NCBI RefSeq assembly: GCF_037975245.1
Contig: NC_092580.1
Span: forward strand, 16,380,001 to 16,444,000
From: Apostichopus japonicus
Taxonomy: Eukaryota > Echinodermata > Holothuroidea > Aspidochirotida > Stichopodidae
DNA: 64,000 bases
Direction: 5' to 3'
Shown: piece after piece, positions 15,101-52,935 of the stretch
How the letters are laid out: the number at the start of each line of letters is the position of its first letter
How positions within the stretch are numbered: the stretch's first letter is position 1
Position numbers and translations under genes: made by a program
Notes under the pieces: generated by a model
Told to the model about the DNA's origin: nothing
Databases searched by the model: none
The model's input: only the letters and a program-made list of their open reading frames with translations

Positions 15101-16631
15101 AAGTTTGGATCATCTGTTGAAAAAAAAAAAAAGCATTAATTTATTTTTTGTTTTTATAAATTTCATGCATTTTTTGCTATCCATATAACTTGCAGAAAAG
15201 TATGGACTAGGTTTTGACCATATACAGATCATCATCTGTATTGGCCCCAAGTTTTAGCATCCTAAAATATGCTAGAAGTTTACAAAAGGCTCTGGTTCTT
15301 GTACTCTCTCTCTTTGCACAGATATTCAAAGGTATTAAAATGGACAAATAAATATCCCAGTGTGGATATTAAACTACAGGTATGTATACAGTGGCAATAA
15401 ATGCCTTGAAATGTGATCATATCTGAGTTACTGGCATTTTTGGGTGCAATATTTACTGATGACCTTTTAATGAACACCATTATGAATAGTTATATAAGGG
15501 GCTTGTGGGGGTTGTAAGGCTTTGTTAATTCTTCCTAAATTGTCTAAACCTGCACCTCTCAAAATAAACTGTTAGTTGTAGTTCTACCATGTATAGCAAT
15601 AATGTGCCGTACGCAGAAGCCAACTAAATTTTACAACCCAGAATAACGACCTGACCTAACACATTATACAATATACCTAAAAGGAGCGATATCTTTGAGA
15701 GCAGATGGCACAACAAAGCACTAATTATACTCAAATGTTTTTTCATTCGGAAAATGTGACAATTTGACAATCCACATTAAGATTTTGTCTTTGGTGATTC
15801 TTTCACAGTTCCATCCAGTTTGAACAATTCTGCACAATCATTGTGAAAAAAAGAAAGGAAGGAAGGAAGGAAGTAATAGCAAATATTATTGATGGGTTGT
15901 TTTTGTTTTTTAAATAGCAGAATGCAGAATATACGTAACAGCTGTGGTTTAATGGGTTATACTTTTACGCTGTCAAAGAGCACACTCTGTAAGATAAATT
16001 GTTTATTTCATGGCAGTAGGTTTTCTTACCCGGTATCAAAAGATGTTTAGTTCTAAAGTTAAAGCAGGGTATAGAGGAACATCTTCACCACAGTCAAGTC
16101 CCACCTTATGACAGTAATGCTCATGTGATCGGTGTAATACAGATTGGCAATGACAAAGCTTTCACAGGCAAGAGCACCAGACCAATACAGAATAAGTAAG
16201 AGGCACAGGCTAGGTTTTTGCCAGCACTCTAAGTGGTGGTAGTAAACAAACACTAAGAACCCTGCTATGAGAGCCATGAGACATGGAATGTACAGATAAG
16301 GGTGGGTAGGTGTATGTCGATTGGCGACAGTATCGGACAGTAATCATTCCTCGACCAGGAAGACTAACGTTATGAACAGCACGAGAAGAGAATCCACCGG
16401 AGGTTGTGACCGGGCAAATGAATCAAGAGGCATTTACTTCTCTGGGCTGAGCAATACGACAGAACGATGGCAAAGGCACTGATGACGGTGAAGAGAAAAT
16501 GAGGAATCAAATGAATTTCCCAGACGGTACAGCTTTCTCGGAGAGAGAAGCCTTTATGTGGAACATCTTGTCCTGTTGAATTTCCACTGGTCACAGAAAA
16601 AGAGCAAAAACTTCTCTTCAAATGTAGACAT
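12117..16631 (-). pseudogene. Decayed SUR/ABCC9-like paralogue (TMD0 to start of TMD1)
   Basis: Five exons in minus-strand order match the first five coding exons of the live SUR-like gene. Exon 1 is 16631-16030 (TMD0; landmark PGHNLRWI), exon 2 is 15113-14866 (YQGYTNL, DLGSLS), exon 3 is 14184-13996 (LSAAG, IPLVL), exon 4 is 12699-12545 (ESAHVKTAIQ) and exon 5 is 12249-12117 (MTTGQITNHM, FQWIH). Splice sites are partly kept. Lesions seen: in exon 1, a frameshift near the start, a one-base loss after RWI, a Gly-to-stop (GGA to TGA) in the VEEGLL region and a further shift at the end; in exon 2, a frameshift and a terminal TAG; in exon 4, a frameshift; in exon 5, an extra A. Homology stops abruptly at FQWIH. 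Exon 3 is intact. No exons for the rest of TMD1, the NBDs or TMD2 were found. Protein similarity to the live gene is low (about a third in exon 3), so this is an old paralogue, not a recent copy. Confidence 0.88.
13484..13520. repeat. GGGA microsatellite
   Basis: A pure purine run of GGGAGGGA units lies inside the relic's intron between exons 3 and 4. The proline/leucine-rich ORF opposite it is an artefact. Confidence 0.9.
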
Positions 16632-17498
16632 TTTGAGAAACAGGCAGTCAGTCTAGAATGTTCATCTCAAAGAGTAAAACAACAGAATTGATCTTCACAA
16701 TTTATATACTTGTGAGCATTATGAACTGGTACAGTGTCCACACCACATCTAAATTTATTGTTTTTGCTAGCTTTGCCTACCCAAATGCTTAATTTCTGTT
16801 GAACTGATAGTGAAAGAGGGATCATTCTGGCTAGCATCATAACAAGATTTTAATGACGCCCACTAACACAAGTACTAAAGTATTAAATCCAGCGAGTCGC
16901 TAAGTATCGATCACAGGCATAGCTAATTTGGACATCTATTTTGGAACATGTTCAGTTACTGTAGGCTTTGGATAGCACAGGTAGAGGACATGGTGACTAA
17001 TTGATTACATTAGCTTTTTCAAAGCCACAATCACTAGTCTTTTTTATTATTTATTCATTGCAGTGTTACGCTGGGAGCGCCCAAAAAGTAAGGCAATGGA
17101 TTTCTTTAATTTTATTTGAACCATGATGACTAGGAGACCATTTCTTTTTAAAAGTAACTTTAGAATAATTATCACCCATATGAATCAAGTAATTAGCAAG
17201 CGCATAAAAAGACTAGTTAGATTTTAGAAGGTGCGATATATCATCAAATGCTAAATGTATGCATGGTCCCTTTTTGATAACAAAAATTGCAATGTTTTGA
17301 ACGACAAAATTAGTATTACTACAGTAAACCAAAACATAGGGTACGTACTGTATATGTATCCCTGTATTATTCCTGACAATGAAATTGACAAAGATACTGT
17401 ACATTAAACAAGTGTAAGAAAGGGTCAGACGACACAGAAATAAGTAGGACAGCAGCAGCTATAAAGTTCGTATGAATCTATTCTCTGGGGCCATTCTC
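16632..17498. other. Region upstream of the SUR relic, no gene seen
   Basis: AT-rich DNA without recognisable exons. It would have held the promoter of the minus-strand paralogue, but no TATA/Inr arrangement stands out. Confidence 0.35.
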
Positions 17499-18305
17499 GG
17501 TCACGTGTGTGACGGAAAAATGGGGAGATTTGCACTTTACCACTAAGTAACTACTTTTAGGTAAAGAAAGTTGGGTTGATTGTAGTACTTAAGTATGCAC
17601 TAGGGGACTCTTTTACAAAACCATATAGCATAGCCAAAATCAGAACATTCATGTGCTGGCAGAGGTCATATAAAGGTCGGTCACGTGTGTGACTTGAAAT
17701 GAAACTGGCTTTTTTGCACAAAAAACATTGGCAAATTCCTCAGTTTCTAACAGGGCTGGATAACCCTAATTTCTCATGTTTCTACCTTAATGTGTTTTCA
17801 TTCTAACAAGACATTTCACCTAAATATTTCACTTCTTAAAATTAGCATAATACTACTGTACATAAGCTAGAAAAATCCGGTCACGTGTGTGACATTGTTG
17901 GGTCACGTGTGTGACATTCTGAATTTTCAGTCCATAGTATGCAATTTTTGCAGTGCAAATGTTGACTCTAGTAATGACCACAGAACAGCACTGATGTTGA
18001 TATTCCATAGGAATTACTTTAAAACAGTTTTACTGCCATGATTTGGAGGGTCACGTGTGTGACATTGTTGGGTCACGTGTGTGACATTCTGCATTTTCAT
18101 GGATAAATGTCACACGTGACCATCGGTCACGTGTGTGACGACTAATTAGAAGCTATTAATTAATTGTAGGAATAATTATTTGACTGGATATTTTGCAGAA
18201 CTAACAGTCTGTACCAAGAACGGTTGCATATCAAGTGTGGACATCATAAGGCACATCAGTTACTTTTTATGAAAACTTTTGCGATATTTTGGTCACGTGT
18301 GTGAC
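17499..18305. promoter_or_regulatory. Cluster of eight 15-bp E-box motifs
   Basis: The exact 15-mer GGTCACGTGTGTGAC occurs at 17499, 17679, 17879, 17901, 18049, 18071, 18125 and 18291, all in the same orientation. One inverted shorter form, GTCACACGTGAC, lies at 18109. Each holds the palindromic E-box CACGTG inside a near-dyad (GTCAC...GTGAC). Two pairs are exactly 22 bp apart, and those pairs belong to a roughly 50-bp duplicated block. The other four have unrelated flanks, so simple duplication does not explain all copies. CACGTG within GTCACGTG is the known type of target for bHLH-ZIP factors (USF, MITF/TFE, Myc/Max). Enhancer or origin function is inference. Confidence 0.7.
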
Positions 18306-21300
18306 ATCAAAATTATGCTAATTAGCACCCATTATTAACGAAGAATTGAAGATCAGGAACCTCTGCTTTAGGAATGATATAAATGAACCCATGTATAACT
18401 GCCTCCATGTGATAGTTGATAACTGAAATATTATTTCTAGATACTCATGTAGAAAAAACAAATATACAGTTAAAAAGTAAAAACTTTGGCTAAAACTTAC
18501 AATAATGCAAATTTATGCAAATTAGTATGTTATGGTTGTAATTTTAATGAAAAAAATATGAAACAGAAAACTTGAGGAATCCCTCTAAAACAGAAAGTAT
18601 AACATTTGGTCCTGATGAACACTTAGGTTTTTTCATGCCAGTTTCATTTTCCAGAGAATGGCCCTCTGGTAGTCTCATTCGAATCACTTTGCCGGCGACT
18701 GCTGTCCCCATTTACAGGTTAGTGTTAGCCAGGTAAGCAGGAGTCAGTAAATATCATCCATGAAGCACTGGATGGTTCATCAGATGTTTCAGTTAAAATA
18801 CAGGTTAGCAGAACAGAGCGAAACTAAACAGATTTTCGCTTTACTTGGGCAAACGAACAGCAAGTTTTGTTAAGTCAGCGTTGCCATGTGAAGTGGTGGC
18901 GCACTTCGCAAATGAAGAAGATGGCTCTAATCTTACAACAAGTTTCAACCATTTCTTAATACACAATAAATTTTATTATTATTAGAACTACATAATTAGG
19001 GTATGCACAAACAGTGTATGTGTGAATGAATAAGTACAGTACATGTGCCCTGCATTATACTTCCCCTTGTGCAGCAGGATAATTGCCAAGCCTACTGCAC
19101 AAATCAGAAAAATTACACCCACCTACCTGTTTTTTTTCTGTTAGTAAATTAAAGAATTCCTCATTTGTCACTGTTTGTGTTGATTTTGCATGTTTGATAC
19201 ATATGAAATTATATTTTTAACAAAGTTTGAGACATGAAATTTAGACCTCAGCTTTAGCAAATCCGTACGAATTTTCCCAAAGAAGTTAATCCGTTATGGA
19301 ATGGTGACACGTACGTTAAATTTCCTTAATTGATCCACAGAAGAAATTATATTATACAAGGCCTAGGCCTATAGCAAAACATATTTCCAGATAATCCACA
19401 ATTTCAAGAAAATGATCCACATATAAATTTTCATGGAGTAATTAGGTACACTTAATTACTGTCAAGATCTTCCATTTCTTAAATAATTTAATCAATATGA
19501 AAATAGGGGCTTTTCCTTGCTCCATAAAAAAAACTATAGTATATCACCGCGGCTGGTTAATAACATTTCGCGAAATATTCCAGGCTTGGACTTTTCACGG
19601 TCAAGAAATTTCATATACAAAGAGTTTACTCCGTATGCAAATGGTGACTGTTTTCCTTTTTCCATAGCAATATTATTATAACAATGTTATATATATATAT
19701 GTTTCAGGGGTGTAGCAAGCTTTTTAGATTGTGGGGGGGTGGGGGTTGCGCCAAAGCCAAATTTTCATTCCCCCGATTTCATGCCCATTTTACGGACCAC
19801 AACAAGAGTCACCGCCCAGCACGAAAAAAATAGGCCCTATTTGACATTAACATCAATTATGTCTGATATTTTGTTTTCTCCATATTTTGGGGAAAGGTGG
19901 GTGGGGGGGGAGCCTATTGACCCATGAGCAGAATAGTCTTTGTCAGCTGATGTCTCTTTGATGCTTGGTTTTATAGACCTAATCAGGCTGTTGTACTGTA
20001 GATATTCCTGGAACAACTGAAAAGTCAAAATGTGTCAAAAAATTGCTGATATTGTTTATAGCCTAATCCTCATTTGAAGTGAGTTTGGGATTAGACGTCC
20101 CAGTTAGGGAGGAACTCTGGAAAGGAACGTCTAGCCTACAACTTTGAACTGGACCTATGATCAGTATGACAGCATGAGGCATGCACTGTTGAGGCTTGGC
20201 GATGTATAAAAACTTGGCCTCCGCGATCGCTAATAATACTAGCACTGAAGTTAGGGTAGACATACTCAAGTCATAGCCTAAGCCCTTGGCCGAAACTCAT
20301 TGACGATGTTTTTTAAACTTTAACGAGACTTCACACATAAGACATGATGCTAAGATCCTTACGTATGAAAGGAAATCCCACTTCCTTTCTTTCTCCGGTT
20401 GGCGCAACCGAATGCAATGCAGGATTCGGGCATTTTTCTGCGAACAGCTATCGACAGTTTGGTCAGTTTAAGTACATTGCTGTGTGTTGAACGTAAACAG
20501 TGAGCAGACGACGCGCACAACTTGCCCGGTTTGGTAATGGCGGGGTCTCCAATGGCACAGTTATTTTGGGCAGTCCGCCCTCTAGATCTTATATTATGCC
20601 CTATGGTCCAATCATAGTCCTACATGATATAGTCTGCTGATCATCAAATTGCACATACAGTGTTTGCAATGTAAGGAGAAAGACCTAATCGATCATGCAG
20701 AATCATGACATAAACATTGCAAGCTTGGCCCAGCACGTTTCAATCGTACTTGAAAGTTGAAAGACGTCAGTCAATGTGATCAGTATTAAAACCTACCAGA
20801 AATACGACTTCTGAGTACTTTTTACGCGATCCGCAAAGCGAAGCCAAACGTCACGGTCGAAACGGTACTAGTATCCTGGAACAAGTAAGTGGCAGCATCA
20901 CCGGTGATCTCTTACCAAACAAAATTACCGCGCTGCGTTTTTGATCAGGTACAGTGACTTGCAAAATTACAAACGTCCACACATGGAAAGGTCAATGCTG
21001 TGTGTAAGATCAAGTGCGGGCTAATGCCATACACTTCAATAGTATGGTCTACTGTACACAGTACAGTAATCATCTAGTGCTGTGACGAAAGCTCGCCTCC
21101 AAACATTAAACTAAAGGAGAAAAGAGCTAAGTCTCGATCCTTTATGCAGTACATCTGAGAGGAATTGGTGAAATTGCAATTACCCTACATGTTACCCAAC
21201 TCCCGGTATCTTGGTAAGAAAAAGTATGAATATTTTCCCCGATTCGGTGAGAATTGGGCCGCTAAAAGCTACCCAAATTTCGCATAACTAATCCTTGGTG

Positions 21301-21791: not shown

Positions 21792-23237
21792 TAAGGGTGT
21801 GACCTAACAGATATTTCGCTAACCGTTTAACCGGATTGCCGCCGGTCGGTTAAACGTTTAAACACCGTTTCCTGATCGTGGCTTTTTTGACTCACCGTCA
21901 CTCGACTTTTAATGAAAATAGGACATTATGAGTACAATAATTAAGGGTTTTTCCAACAGGTAGCAATTCAGGCAACAAGAGGACTATCAATGTATGTTAA
22001 AATTAGGCCCAATAATATTGCGAACAATTCGTGTAATAATTGCTGAAAAGAATAACACACATGATCAGTATTCGTGGTCTTCAGAAGTTCAGATCACTGA
22101 ATTTATATAACTCGGCCTTCGGCAACATCATAACTTTTGAAAAAAACAATACATTTGGCTATCTATCACGAGATTTTAAACAAACACTCGCCTAACTTAG
22201 CAAACTTACCCACCTTTCCTGCTTACTCATTAAAAGTCATGTGTAGAAAAACAAATTACAGGTTGTGCGATGGGTTGTAAAAATCAAGTTGAAACTGGTT
22301 TGAGCAGCCTCCGATTTCATTTTCTTTCTCTTGTGTCACATACAGTACTTTACATTTGATACAAAAGTTACAAAAGTCGCAATAGGTTAAGATTTAACCG
22401 CGCAGCACAGTACCATTCATAATTTGCATATTACACCAAAATTTACACCCGGCGTCCAGATGGCGGAAAATGTAACATCATGTTCAATGTGTTGTGTCGT
22501 TCCCATGGTGCGATGAACTTGGGCAAGTTCGAATGTCGATGACCTACTTATGTTCTGTGACCAATGTCAGTGGGAATTGTTTGTGTAAAAACTCGGTTTT
22601 TCCACGTGTGATATATATATATAAAAGTTTTACGTAAGCGGAGCGAATTTTGGGGCGGCTCGTTGATTGTGAGGAAGCACTTATCTAAGCATCAATATTT
22701 GTGAAAAATATTGTAAGGTTTTTCATTTTCATTCATTTTCTTTTATGTTTGCCGCAATCCCGCCCGCAATGCATGCACAGTATAATACCATGTGTGAAAA
22801 AAATGGCTGTACACGTGCGGACCTGAGAGAGCAAACTTGCCTTGTGTTGTTAATGTTATTACGGTACTTTCTAGAATGACCATTTGCGTCTTTTGGGGTC
22901 AACATGCTTTCACACGGGATTTCACCATGCCATTGATCGATGTACACAGGTGATATATGTCGCAAATATAAACTGAGAAAACGAATTGACGACACTATCA
23001 TGAGCTTATGACCATTGGCCTACTACTATAATTATATTGAGCACATTATTCATGCCTAAAACATCGTTTTTCTGTTTTTTTATTGATAGTTTGCAGTACA
23101 TACTCAGTTCTTTACATATTTTAAAATAATTTTCATGTTTAAAATGTGTTTGAATTTTTTTAAATTTTCTGTTTATACGGTTTGTGATTTTCTAAACGGA
23201 TAGTGCATTTGCGGCCGGTTAAACGGTCACACCCTTA
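21792..23237. mobile_element. Non-autonomous hAT-like DNA transposon
   Basis: The ends are inverted: TAAGGGTGTGACC at the left and GGTCACACCCTTA at the right, with further subterminal inverse matches around GTTTAACCGG. Both ends abut the same 8-bp sequence GTGCTGCC (21784-21791 and 23238-23245), the target-duplication length of hAT elements. The 1446-bp interior has no transposase-like ORF, so it would need proteins from elsewhere. The right 1.23 kb of it was later copied by the 2357-bp tandem duplication. Confidence 0.82.
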
Positions 23238-26200
23238 GTGCTGCCATCTGAAAAAGTTAACTTTTTGTTGCTTGCATGTGACATTTTGTTCCTGTCACTA
23301 CAAAATGCAGACAGTACAGTAATGAAACGTGATACCTTGTTATCTTTAGCTGGACCTGAGATGTCCATCGCTGTATTGTTTGTACACTGTGCTGTGGGTA
23401 TTGACAGCAGCTGTATGTACTGACTGTACACTAGTGTCTAATTACCGACGGTAGCAAGCTGTGTGTGTGTATTTCTGGGATCGATGGTGGTGTCTTACAC
23501 TTTTGTTACACCTCATTCGAAACTAGGTCAGATTACGGGCATTAGACGTTTCTTTTTGCGCGAGTCTTCACACCCTTTAAGTGCTATTGGAAATGCACTG
23601 TTATTTATTTGTTTTTATCTGCGAGAGGAATTGGAGAAATTTTACTTCAATTTTTTCGGAAAATAATTGTGGAAATGCTTAGGAAGATGCCACTTTGTCT
23701 TCTAGTTACAGTAGCCCGAACATCACCACTACAATTTTGCTTACAAGGTCTTAGTATTTACACTTATACTACTGCAGACATTTGCAAGCATTGTTATTGT
23801 AATCTAAAAGTTCATTTGTAATAAGGCCTAAGAGTTGGGAAATATGTTTCTAACTATGTTTCCTTTTTATGTATCACTGACTTGTGTTTGTTGGATAATA
23901 CCAAATTCTCCCAATTTCACTCTAAATATCAATGTTTTGCAGATGAAAAGTTATAAATCTACCTTTTTTTGAAAGACAGTTTGGCTGGTATACCGAGGTC
24001 TAGGCTACTGTGTGTGAGTATGATAGCCCTGGTACAGTGCTAGCTCAGTGGTTTGAATTTCAAAATTTGAATAAAGACTAAAACAGTGAATGTATATAAA
24101 AACTAAGGTGGGAGTTACATTTACCTGAATATCTAATAGTGAAGCAACAAACAAATTTTGTGGAAATTCTTCTCGGACTGGATTGAGATTACATAAACAA
24201 CAATGTCTTGATAATATAAAGCTTCAATTAGGGGATTATAGCCACAATGCTCCATTGTTAGAGTAGAGTCCTGATATATTGATTCTCTAAACAATGCAAG
24301 TGTATGCCTCTTACAACAATTTGAATATTTTGTGCAGTAGTATTTTAAAAGGATTAACCCACATCCCAATAATATTGCGAACAATTCGTGTAATAATTGC
24401 TGAAAAGAATAACACACATGATCAGTATTCGTGGTCTTCAGAAGTTCAGATCACTGAATTTATATAACTCGGCCTTCGGCAACATCATAACTTTTGAAAA
24501 AAACAATACATTTGGCTATCTATCACGAGATTTTAAACAAACACTCGCCTAACTTAGCAAACTTACCCACCTTTCCTGCTTACTCATTAAAAGTCATGTG
24601 TAGAAAAACAAATTACAGGTTGTGCGATGGGTTGTAAAAATCAAGTTGAAACTGGTTTGAGCAGCCTCCGATTTCATTTTCTTTCTCTTGTGTCACATAC
24701 AGTACTTTACATTTGATACAAAAGTTACAAAAGTCGCAATAGGTTAAGATTTAACCGCGCAGCACAGTACCATTCATAATTTGCATATTACACCAAAATT
24801 TACACCCGGCGTCCAGATGGCGGAAAATGTAACATCATGTTCAATGTGTTGTGTCGTTCCCATGGTGCGATGAACTTGGGCAAGTTCGAATGTCGATGAC
24901 CTACTTATGTTCTGTGACCAATGTCAGTGGGAATTGTTTGTGTAAAAACTCGGTTTTTCCACGTGTGATATATATATATAAAAGTTTTACGTAAGCGGAG
25001 CGAATTTTGGGGCGGCTCGTTGATTGTGAGGAAGCACTTATCTAAGCATCAATATTTGTGAAAAATATTGTAAGGTTTTTCATTTTCATTCATTTTCTTT
25101 TATGTTTGCCGCAATCCCGCCCGCAATGCATGCACAGTATAATACCATGTGTGAAAAAAATGGCTGTACACGTGCGGACCTGAGAGAGCAAACTTGCCTT
25201 GTGTTGTTAATGTTATTACGGTACTTTCTAGAATGACCATTTGCGTCTTTTGGGGTCAACATGCTTTCACACGGGATTTCACCATGCCATTGATCGATGT
25301 ACACAGGTGATATATGTCGCAAATATAAACTGAGAAAACGAATTGACGACACTATCATGAGCTTATGACCATTGGCCTACTACTATAATTATATTGAGCA
25401 CATTATTCATGCCTAAAACATCGTTTTTCTGTTTTTTTATTGATAGTTTGCAGTACATACTCAGTTCTTTACATATTTTAAAATAATTTTCATGTTTAAA
25501 ATGTGTTTGAATTTTTTTAAATTTTCTGTTTATACGGTTTGTGATTTTCTAAACGGATAGTGCATTTGCGGCCGGTTAAACGGTCACACCCTTAGTGCTG
25601 CCATCTGAAAAAGTTAACTTTTTGTTGCTTGCATGTGACATTTTGTTCCTGTCACTACAAAATGCAGACAGTACAGTAATGAAACGTGATACCTTGTTAT
25701 CTTTAGCTGGACCTGAGATGTCCATCGCTGTATTGTTTGTACACTGTGCTGTGGGTATTGACAGCAGCTGTATGTACTGACTGTACACTAGTGTCTAATT
25801 ACCGACGGTAGCAAGCTGTGTGTGTGTATTTCTGGGATCGATGGTGGTGTCTTACACTTTTGTTACACCTCATTCGAAACTAGGTCAGATTACGGGCATT
25901 AGACGTTTCTTTTTGCGCGAGTCTTCACACCCTTTAAGTGCTATTGGAAATGCACTGTTATTTATTTGTTTTTATCTGCGAGAGGAATTGGAGAAATTTT
26001 ACTTCAATTTTTTCGGAAAATAATTGTGGAAATGCTTAGGAAGATGCCACTTTGTCTTCTAGTTACAGTAGCCCGAACATCACCACTACAATTTTGCTTA
26101 CAAGGTCTTAGTATTTACACTTATACTACTGCAGACATTTGCAAGCATTGTTATTGTAATCTAAAAGTTCATTTGTAATAAGGCCTAAGAGTTGGGAAAT

Positions 26201-26721
26201 ATGTTTCTAACTATGTTTCCTTTTTATGTATCACTGACTTGTGTTTGTTGGATAATACCAAATTCTCCCAATTTCACTCTAAATATCAATGTTTTGCAGA
26301 TGAAAAGTTATAAATCTACCTTTTTTTGAAAGACAGTTTGGCTGGTATACCGAGGTCTAGGCTACTGTGTGTGAGTATGATAGCCCTGGTACAGTGCTAG
26401 CTCAGTGGTTTGAATTTCAAAATTTGAATAAAGACTAAAACAGTGAATGTATATAAAAACTAAGGTGGGAGTTACATTTACCTGAATATCTAATAGTGAA
26501 GCAACAAACAAATTTTGTGGAAATTCTTCTCGGACTGGATTGAGATTACATAAACAACAATGTCTTGATAATATAAAGCTTCAATTAGGGGATTATAGCC
26601 ACAATGCTCCATTGTTAGAGTAGAGTCCTGATATATTGATTCTCTAAACAATGCAAGTGTATGCCTCTTACAACAATTTGAATATTTTGTGCAGTAGTAT
26701 TTTAAAAGGATTAACCCACAT
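22008..26721. repeat. 2357-bp direct tandem duplication, two copies
   Basis: Copy 1 spans 22008-24364 and copy 2 spans 24365-26721. All stretches I compared are identical, including every ORF translation and the microsatellite-like TATATATATA. The copy 2 junction has AATATT near the breakpoint (CATCCCAATAATATTG against CATCAATATTATGAT), a possible microhomology. Copy 1 starts inside the hAT-like element, so copy 2 carries a right transposon end (near 25594) with no left end. The ORFs inside (60-90 codons) show no recognisable protein. Confidence 0.95.
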
Positions 26722-27720
26722 CAATATTATGATAATTATCAAGAACTTTTGTTAATAGTATTTGGTGGTAGAGCTATAAGATTGCATTTTATGAGCTGTT
26801 TATTGTCTTTTTGATTTTCAGTAAGTGAAAAGGAAACATGTAGTAATTTATACAAAATTTAGCCTCAAATGGGAACAGAGAGATGAAATTGTACACCACA
26901 AAGTCAATATCTAAGTCTGATTGAGTTGCAAGTGAACTTTCCAAGTGATCAAAAAAGAAATGTTTGTGAATTGCAAACAGGTAAAAGTGCAACTGTTTAA
27001 AATTTAAGAATTTGCATTGAGTTTGTAAATGGCCTTCCTGTGATAGGATATTGCAACATATGGACTTTGAAATTTCAGGTTTAATCTACTTTTTGTACTT
27101 TTCTATAGTGCTACAGTACTTTACGACTCAACATTTGATATGAATCATATTACTTTGTTGACTACATGGTTACCATTTCTAAAACATTTTTGAGCTATTT
27201 ATTGTCTTAAAAGTGATACAAACCAAAATATTTTGAAGGGGATATCTAAACCTCTTTCCTACAGCTTTTAGACCTGTAAACCAGTTTAAAAAGTTTTCAC
27301 CAAGAGAATGGAATTTAAATCTCTGGGCACATTTAAATTGAATATTCCACACAAGTACATTATGGTCGATTCGAAAGTGAAACCCAACTGGTATGCTTTT
27401 CTGTGCAAAAGACTCCCATTGTATATAGGAATTCACTGTACATGCAAGTTTCTGAAACTGTTTACTTAGTGTCTTGTGGGCTGGCCTGCCATTGTTGACA
27501 TGCATATATTTGTAATGTGTGCAGCAATGCTTGAGAACCTAGCTCATTTTGATAGTATGTACACACTCACTAGATTCCACTGTAGTAGTAATACCAGTGT
27601 GCAATGGTCTGTGTAAAGTCTATACAGTTTACTTAATGCACTGGCAAGGTTTTAATCATGGAAAAGGTTGTGAAACATTTTCTCAATTTTGTTGAACCAA
27701 GTGTACAGTTCTTGTATACA
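26722..27720. other. Unique AT-rich DNA upstream of the SUR gene
   Basis: I see no exon or RNA gene. It lies between the tandem duplication and the TGGA array, and may be the 3' part of the SUR gene's first intron. Confidence 0.35.
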
Positions 27721-27739
27721 GAATGAGTACAGTATGTGG

Positions 27740-28275
27740 GATTGATGGATGTATGTATGGGATGTATGGATGGATGGGATGTATGGATGGATTGATGGAT
27801 ATGGATGGATATGTATGGATGGGATATGGATGGTTATGGATGGATCAATGGAAATGGATGGATCAATGGAAATGGATGGATGGATATGATGGATGGATAT
27901 GGATGGGATATGGATGGATGGATGGATATGATGGATGGATATGGATGGGATATGGATGGTTATGGATGGATCAATGGAAATGGATGGATGGATATGATGG
28001 ATGGATATGGATGGGATATGGATGGATGGATGGATATGATGGATGGATATGGATGGGATATGGATGGGATATGGATGGGATATGGATGGGATATGGATAG
28101 ATATGGATGGATGGATGTAGATGGATGGATATGGATGGGATATGGATGGGATATGGATGGATATGGATGGATGGATGTAGATGGATGGGATATGGATGGG
28201 ATATGGATGGGATATGGATGGATGGATAAAGATGGATGGATGGATATGGATGGACAGATATGAATGGATATGGAT
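27740..28275. repeat. TGGA-rich minisatellite (ATGGATATGGATGGG)
   Basis: Mixed 4- to 19-bp units of ATGGATGG, ATATGGATGGG and ATCAATGGAA form higher-order blocks; a roughly 125-bp block recurs near 27830 and 27955. The array ends about 70 bp before the acceptor of the first coding exon of the SUR gene. Several overlapping ORFs on both strands (Trp/Met/Asp-rich or His/Pro/Ser/Ile-rich) are by-products. Confidence 0.95.
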
Positions 28276-28359
28276 ATGCAGCAATAGAGACAAAATCTGC
28301 CACAGGCTTGCAATATATTATTCTTATCTTGTATTTGTCTCTTGCAGAATTTCAGAACC

Positions 28360-52935
<24,576 letters not shown>

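Follow-up and report, generated by a model that had tools for sequence, protein, structure and literature searches.

The cluster of 15-bp motifs at positions 17499 to 18305 of the window, by which we mean the whole 64,000-nucleotide stretch of Apostichopus japonicus DNA that was analyzed, almost certainly lies inside a copy of a cut-and-paste DNA transposon that is non-autonomous and bounded by terminal inverted repeats (TIRs). The element occupies 17488 to 18664 on the plus strand (1,177 bp), and the combination of inverted ends, a 4-bp target site duplication (TSD), and recurrence at dozens of loci identifies it as such. The main explanation of the cluster is thus an ordinary one, an interspersed transposon. 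As a whole, the results are best explained by a transposon whose motifs were kept for movement, a reading that we consider probable.

The motif itself was initially located and counted within the window. Eight exact copies of GGTCACGTGTGTGAC were present, all on the plus strand, at 17499 to 17513 (copy 1, abutting the left TIR), 17679 to 17693 (copy 2), 17879 to 17893 (copy 3), 17901 to 17915 (copy 4), 18049 to 18063 (copy 5), 18071 to 18085 (copy 6), 18125 to 18139 (copy 8), and 18291 to 18305 (copy 9). Copy 7, at 18109 to 18121 on the minus strand, is an inverted form of the motif that lacks two bases. Dinucleotide shuffles of the window (n = 100) produced a mean of 0.07 matches to GGTCACGTGTGTGAC with up to two mismatches and never more than 1, and a scan of the window with the same tolerance yielded no match beyond the cluster copies. 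Copies 3 and 4 and copies 5 and 6 start 22 bp apart, at 17879/17901 and 18049/18071, and both pairs are parts of a 51-bp block that is present in two copies, 98% alike and 170 bp apart. The motif word is a near-palindrome, GTCAC-GTGT-GTGAC, and CACGTG is found in every exact copy, within GTCACGTG. The preliminary description was accurate in several respects: it had reported eight exact copies in one orientation, two pairs with a 22-bp spacing, a single inverted variant, and a CACGTG core, and it had argued, correctly, that tandem duplication alone is insufficient to explain the copies. No head-to-tail array of the type found in satellites was detected over the motifs by Tandem Repeats Finder, and an Rfam search over 16000 to 20000 gave no match.

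That description had also placed the motifs in otherwise ordinary DNA, and here it was mistaken, as 17488 to 18664 is a dispersed repeat. When window positions 16300 to 19700 were used for a DNA search, at least 41 match rows were obtained, among them the window's own match and one copy split into two pieces; these rows come from 40 of 164 candidates, so the copy number is a lower bound. The matches were 90 to 98% identical over 17488 to 18664 or parts of it, most of them both started and ended at or very close to these positions, and none overran the ends by more than about 16 bases. Beyond the ends, the flanks of the dispersed copies were unrelated. The 11-bp left TIR, GGGCCATTCTC (17488 to 17498), was unchanged in all 297 cells of the 28 DNA-search rows, and the 11-bp right TIR, GAGAATGGCCC (18654 to 18664), was changed in 2 of 286 cells of the same rows. 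The exact 17-mers at the left and right ends were found 64 and 57 times in the genome, respectively, compared to 0 for the reversed controls.

In the window copy, the TIRs are flanked by TCTG on both sides (17484 to 17487 and 18665 to 18668), a match at four of four bases. Among 38 copies with both ends, a count that left out duplicate copies and loci L077 to L084, the 4-bp TSD was exact in 29, matched at three of the four bases in 6, and matched at two or fewer in 3; no copy was flanked by a 5-bp repeat. The duplicated sequence varied and was AT-rich. An empty target was recovered in one case: in L010 the element is flanked by AAAT left and right, and in an uninterrupted related stretch of L036 the two L010 flanks are adjacent, with AAAT present once. 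L010 sits inside another repeat, and the stretch in L036 is an uninterrupted relative of that repeat. At 1,177 bp, the element is longer than the limit of less than 800 bp that PMC5199201 gives for MITEs.

The signature of the element, GGGCCATTCTC ends plus the GTCACGTGTGTGAC motif, recurs throughout the genome. The 14-mer core of the motif was present 494 times (217 plus 277) in the 671.6-Mb assembly, compared to 9 times (4 plus 5) for the reversed-word control, and among the matches listed (100 places) it was mostly clustered, with similar internal spacings. The loci that were fetched contained 418 of the 494 14-mers (L070, which lies inside L035, was counted once), and the window contained 8. 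The preliminary description had proposed a genome-wide count of the 15-mer and had stated that it would be overturned if the word proved abundant because a satellite or transposon carries it. This is the outcome that we obtained, and its reading of the motifs as an E-box cluster fails. The same array occurs at dozens of loci with other flanks, so the cluster is not special to this locus or to the SUR genes next to it. Two other types of locus were noted. At element position 616, four diverged copies (L043, L045, L046, and L052) have a tandem array of 97 bp, variable and missing from the window copy, and the array of L045 contained no motif at up to two mismatches. Another locus, L076 (G000:C4:4734800-4735500), has a lone motif and resembles the element only faintly (best E value, 5.5e-05).

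A majority sequence was derived column by column from 35 copies. It is 1,174 bp long, and all nine of its motifs are exact, with one in inverted orientation and the other eight direct. The window copy differs from it by 2.05% and keeps eight of the nine motifs, and L001 and L003 keep nine of nine. The inverted site holds an exact motif in 30 of the 35 aligned element copies, and the 13 bases at 18109 to 18121 are this ninth motif minus two bases. Judging from the aligned copies, the ancestral element evidently had nine identical near-palindromes, eight direct and one inverted. For copies 1 to 6, in order, the 14-mer was exact in 37/45, 33/46, 32/47, 33/48, 37/48, and 33/45 of the element copies scored; the inverted 14-mer of copy 7 was exact in 34/41, the window being an exception, and the values for copies 8 and 9 were 29/41 and 39/49. 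The motifs extend 800 bp inward from the left end, and none is present in the last 360 bp. In the flank columns, which were compared in an earlier 60-row set, only a preceding G was common to all nine sites, and the two positions that follow the motif were A in six and T in seven of the nine, respectively.

The motifs are also sites of deletion. The proportion of deleted cells in non-CpG columns was 141/4,829 within motifs versus 320/49,659 elsewhere. Exactly one 22-bp unit has been lost from several copies, including L036, L037, L039, L049, L057, and L065, and in L067 and L072, 789 and 623 bp, respectively, have been lost between two motif copies, with one motif left. Deletions without both ends in motifs were found in L033, L043, L044, L063, and L075. 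The repeats serve as short homologies for the loss of segments from copies.

We compared the rates of change within and outside the motifs between insertions. Seventy-five rows were aligned to the majority sequence (L059 and L076 did not align), and 57 were retained as independent. Of the 18 that were dropped, 13 duplicated or overlapped a row that was kept, four had fewer than 250 letters (L041, L054, L058, and L060), and the last was L072. Both L018 and L046 were kept, as they have 80 bp in common on one side only. In these 57 rows, non-CpG substitutions were found in 51 of 4,688 motif cells and 1,755 of 49,339 cells elsewhere, a ratio of 0.31, or 0.24 after trinucleotide correction. The ratio had been 0.35 in the earlier 60-row set, which flank comparison showed to hold copies of the same insertion (L049 with L019, L071 with L064, and L043 with L039), and it changed little, to 0.31, once these duplicates were removed. 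Non-CpG alleles carried by three or more copies were absent from the 105 motif columns, compared to 96 in the 1,027 other columns; private changes were less reduced, with 43 in the 105 motif columns versus 647 in the 1,027 others. When nine 14-mers were placed at random, 0 of 1,000 placements were as low in total rate, shared changes, or private changes. The CpG columns changed in the same direction (56/932 cells in motifs versus 134/964 elsewhere). Some rows had been found through end words that overlap the first motif or through the 14-mer, whereas the rows from the DNA search are free of this bias; in the latter, the nine motif windows ranked between the 1st and 30th percentiles of all 14-bp windows for substitution rate, and some spacer windows were as quiet as the motif windows.

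A tree built without the motif columns was then used to divide these changes by branch type. On internal branches, motifs changed 0.31 times as much as spacers; the factor was 0.51 on terminal branches, which span time both before and after insertion. This contrast lacked statistical significance, with P values of 0.25 (52 rows), 0.33 (the 28 DNA-search rows), and 0.31 (the other 24), and the tree alone therefore cannot separate change before insertion from change after it. The P value had been 0.049 in the earlier set, with its hidden duplicates, and the loss of this borderline significance lowers the odds of the mechanism proposed below.

We investigated change after insertion with segmental duplicates of single insertions, which were recognized by their common flanks and whose differences should postdate the insertion. 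In the series on contig C7 (11 members), 10 of 93 motif columns and 56 of 1,012 spacer columns were variable outside CpG, and in the series on contig C17 (12 members), 12 of 65 motif columns and 107 of 690 spacer columns were variable. The motif-to-spacer ratios were 1.98 (0.91 to 3.42) for C7 and 1.20 (0.65 to 1.86) for C17, both with wide intervals, compared to 0.38 (0.19 to 0.58) for 11 independent insertions in 500 random draws. Six of the 10 variable motif columns in C7 form one block at one site and represent fewer events than columns. L094, a separate insertion, was left out of C17 and L102 was left out of C7; L064, later placed in C17, was absent from the analysis. The right flank was seen to be common in 9 of the 11 C7 members, and L099 and L101, which have a changed end word, were placed by the same truncated match start. 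Judging from the C7 and C17 series, the motif appears to have been kept during the spread of the element and not after insertion, a conclusion with moderate support. Conservation between insertions but not within duplicates points to mobility and away from the control of host genes.

The mechanism that we propose is that each palindrome would be bound by a protein dimer on which movement depends; the likeliest candidate is a transposase encoded by an autonomous partner that was not seen. Copies with most of their motifs intact would go on jumping, and after insertion the motifs would decay freely. We consider it slightly better than an even chance that the motif is a transposase-binding site, for which the known systems discussed below give precedent. 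Against this mechanism, the array is more spread out and more lopsided than the usual subterminal array.

A host factor of the bHLH-zip class (USF, MITF, or TFEB-like) might instead have been borrowed, to drive transcription of the parent element, open chromatin, or aid transposition. The presence of CACGTG in every exact copy and the lower rate of change in the CpG columns of the motifs (56/932 versus 134/964 cells) agree with this, and a constraint limited to the mobile phase fits it equally well, since selection on mobility would keep such a motif too. We nonetheless regard a host factor as unlikely, as the constraint spans the whole 14-mer, including the distal GTGAC arm, which is dispensable for an E-box, with 0 shared alleles in the 105 columns, and as a noncoding element can move without transcription of its own.

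We consider it quite improbable that the motifs were kept alike without selection, through template switching or gene conversion between the nine copies, which lie within 800 bp of each other. The motif-to-motif deletions (in L067 and L072, and the 22-bp losses) do show that the copies recombine, the motif columns are richer in deleted cells (141/4,829 versus 320/49,659), and the lowered rate of change on terminal branches would fit as well. Conversion should, however, continue after insertion, yet motifs decay freely in the duplicates, and its tracts would need to end at the edges of the 15-bp word, beyond which no flank column other than the preceding G is common to all sites.

The proposal that the motifs are transposase-binding sites was weighed against transposons with known internal arrays and known target duplications. 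Duplications of 4 bp are made by the Sola, Ginger, and Chapaev superfamilies, and the likeness of the element to these is limited to the length of the duplication; no coding member of the element was found among the loci searched. Target duplications of hAT transposons are usually 8 bp long, versus 4 bp here, and we rejected hAT on this basis. In the hAT elements Herves, Ac, and Tol2, transposase binds a short motif that is repeated subterminally (PMC3143072), and these elements resemble the present element in having a short motif repeated near the ends; the motif described here differs in being a near-palindrome and in reaching 800 bp inward. The 19-bp palindromes at piggyBac ends are bound by a transposase dimer through its paired cysteine-rich domains; the activity of piggyBat is restrained by its subterminal sites (PMC11707139). 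These elements share with ours repeated internal palindromes that are uneven at the two ends, theirs being bound by a transposase dimer (PMC11707139). They differ in their TTAA duplications (PMC5199201), compared to a variable AT-rich 4 bp here, and in the sequences of motif and TIR; TTAA was found in only 1 of the 38 rows (L022), and piggyBac was rejected. Two other groups were rejected from target duplication lengths given in PMC5199201: the P element, with 7 to 8 bp versus 4 bp here, and Academ, with 3 bp versus 4 bp in 29 of 38 copies. The bivalve pearl-family MITEs DTC84 and CvA are also non-autonomous and contain an internal tandem array, as do the diverged members of our family with the 97-bp array. 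DTC84 has a palindrome near the repeat junction, as described in PMC5139131, versus nine palindromes outside the array here; this comparison is one of descriptions. A literature search for TIR rules of the superfamilies with 4-bp duplications returned no usable rule, and a search with the 14-mer in both orientations and the two TIR words returned, among the matches listed, matches to the TIR words only.

In search of the partner that this mechanism calls for, 8 left ends and 12 right ends that lacked a mate were followed downstream and upstream, respectively, and BLAST was used. No autonomous element or transposase was found among the 87 left-end and 85 right-end matches with up to one mismatch; a partner with diverged ends, or one in missing sequence, may have escaped this search. 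L035 (G000:C6:10863500-10871000) was the only copy with more than 1.6 kb between its own two ends. These ends are 5.3 kb apart, and L035 was rejected as an autonomous copy, as its interior is a LINE on the opposite strand. The LINE, at about 1.4 to 5.7 kb, was inserted into an element copy and has an endonuclease domain (E value, 6.4e-08) and a reverse transcriptase (E value, 3.2e-06) that falls just under the Pfam cutoff. The extra inner sequence of L036 contained no open reading frame (ORF) of over 120 amino acids. ORFs of at least 90 amino acids were collected from 13 loci; five of them, from four loci, were submitted to Pfam and the rest were judged by eye. L051 gave a weak nuclear-receptor match and L053 a match to PF09004 (E value, 1.7e-06), and neither the two ORFs of L054 nor that of L059 gave a Pfam match.

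Other possible bearers of the same TIR were also examined. The TIR word GGGCCATTCTCNNM was present at 79 sites, compared to 33 for the reversed control, and the eight sites with the extension AGA were inspected. At L077, L080, L081, L083, and L084, the similarity continues beyond the word into the flank, indicating another repeat; the other three sites had nothing in common with those five, and an inverted GGGCCATTCTCNNM word was found near none of the eight. Nine sites on contig C16 that resemble the right end (L103 to L111, 15.8 to 17.1 Mb) were rejected as well, having only 16 to 17 bp in common with it. Seven of the other eight C16 sites are similar to L103, and these sites too look like another repeat; the resemblance to the element may be due to chance or to a distant relative.

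The surroundings of the element in the window were searched for coding sequence. An ORF at 28288 to 29013 on the plus strand matched SUR1 (E value, 1.2e-16) and contained a TMD0 domain in Pfam, and an ORF at 16373 to 16666 on the minus strand matched SUR2B weakly (E value, 0.0019) and the plus-strand ORF at an E value of 4e-08. These matches support the head-to-head arrangement of SUR-like genes around the cluster that had been reported. Four minus-strand ORFs below 16.7 kb had no Pfam match. From its sequence context, the position of the element gives no sign of being more than that of an ordinary insertion. Several repeats were observed nearby: a 2,358-bp stretch present twice in tandem with 100% identity (22008 to 24365 and 24365 to 26722), which is a very recent duplication or an assembly artifact; a minisatellite-like array at 2038 to 2985, with self-matches of over 90% identity at several offsets; and, at 50971 to 52125 and at 27655 to 28406, long repetitive ORFs that overlap each other and occupy both strands, as is typical of minisatellites, the latter region directly preceding the SUR-like gene. 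A short minus-strand ORF at 20362 to 20619, the end of which we take to resemble the start of a THAP domain, had no Pfam match.

That the motifs form a bHLH-zip enhancer for the flanking SUR genes, at present or through co-option of the window copy, is very improbable: the element does lie about 0.8 kb upstream of the first recognizable exon of the minus-strand SUR-like gene and does keep eight of nine motifs, but the same array is found with other flanks at dozens of loci, some of which (such as L001 and L003) keep all nine, the rest of the window is free of matches with two or fewer mismatches, and no constraint after insertion was detected in the C7 and C17 series, neither of which is the window copy. 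What stands of the preliminary description is a repeat beyond chance expectation and a motif that is more conserved than its surroundings, with a rate ratio of 0.31 between independent insertions; what does not stand is a local E-box cluster tied to the SUR genes.

Taken together, these results dispose of a misleading candidate enhancer next to a SUR-like gene. The comparison of independent insertions with segmental duplicates separates sequence kept for a transposon's movement from sequence kept for the host and has wider use. In addition, the element copies form a natural series of motif losses for finding the sites that a transposase needs. More tentatively, and with a rather low probability in our estimation, the element may represent an undescribed transposon lineage, or an equally undescribed branch within one of the superfamilies that make 4-bp duplications. 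Its ends would be recognized over a long one-sided array of identical palindromes, and a host bHLH-zip factor that possibly reads the array as well would link movement to the state of the cell.
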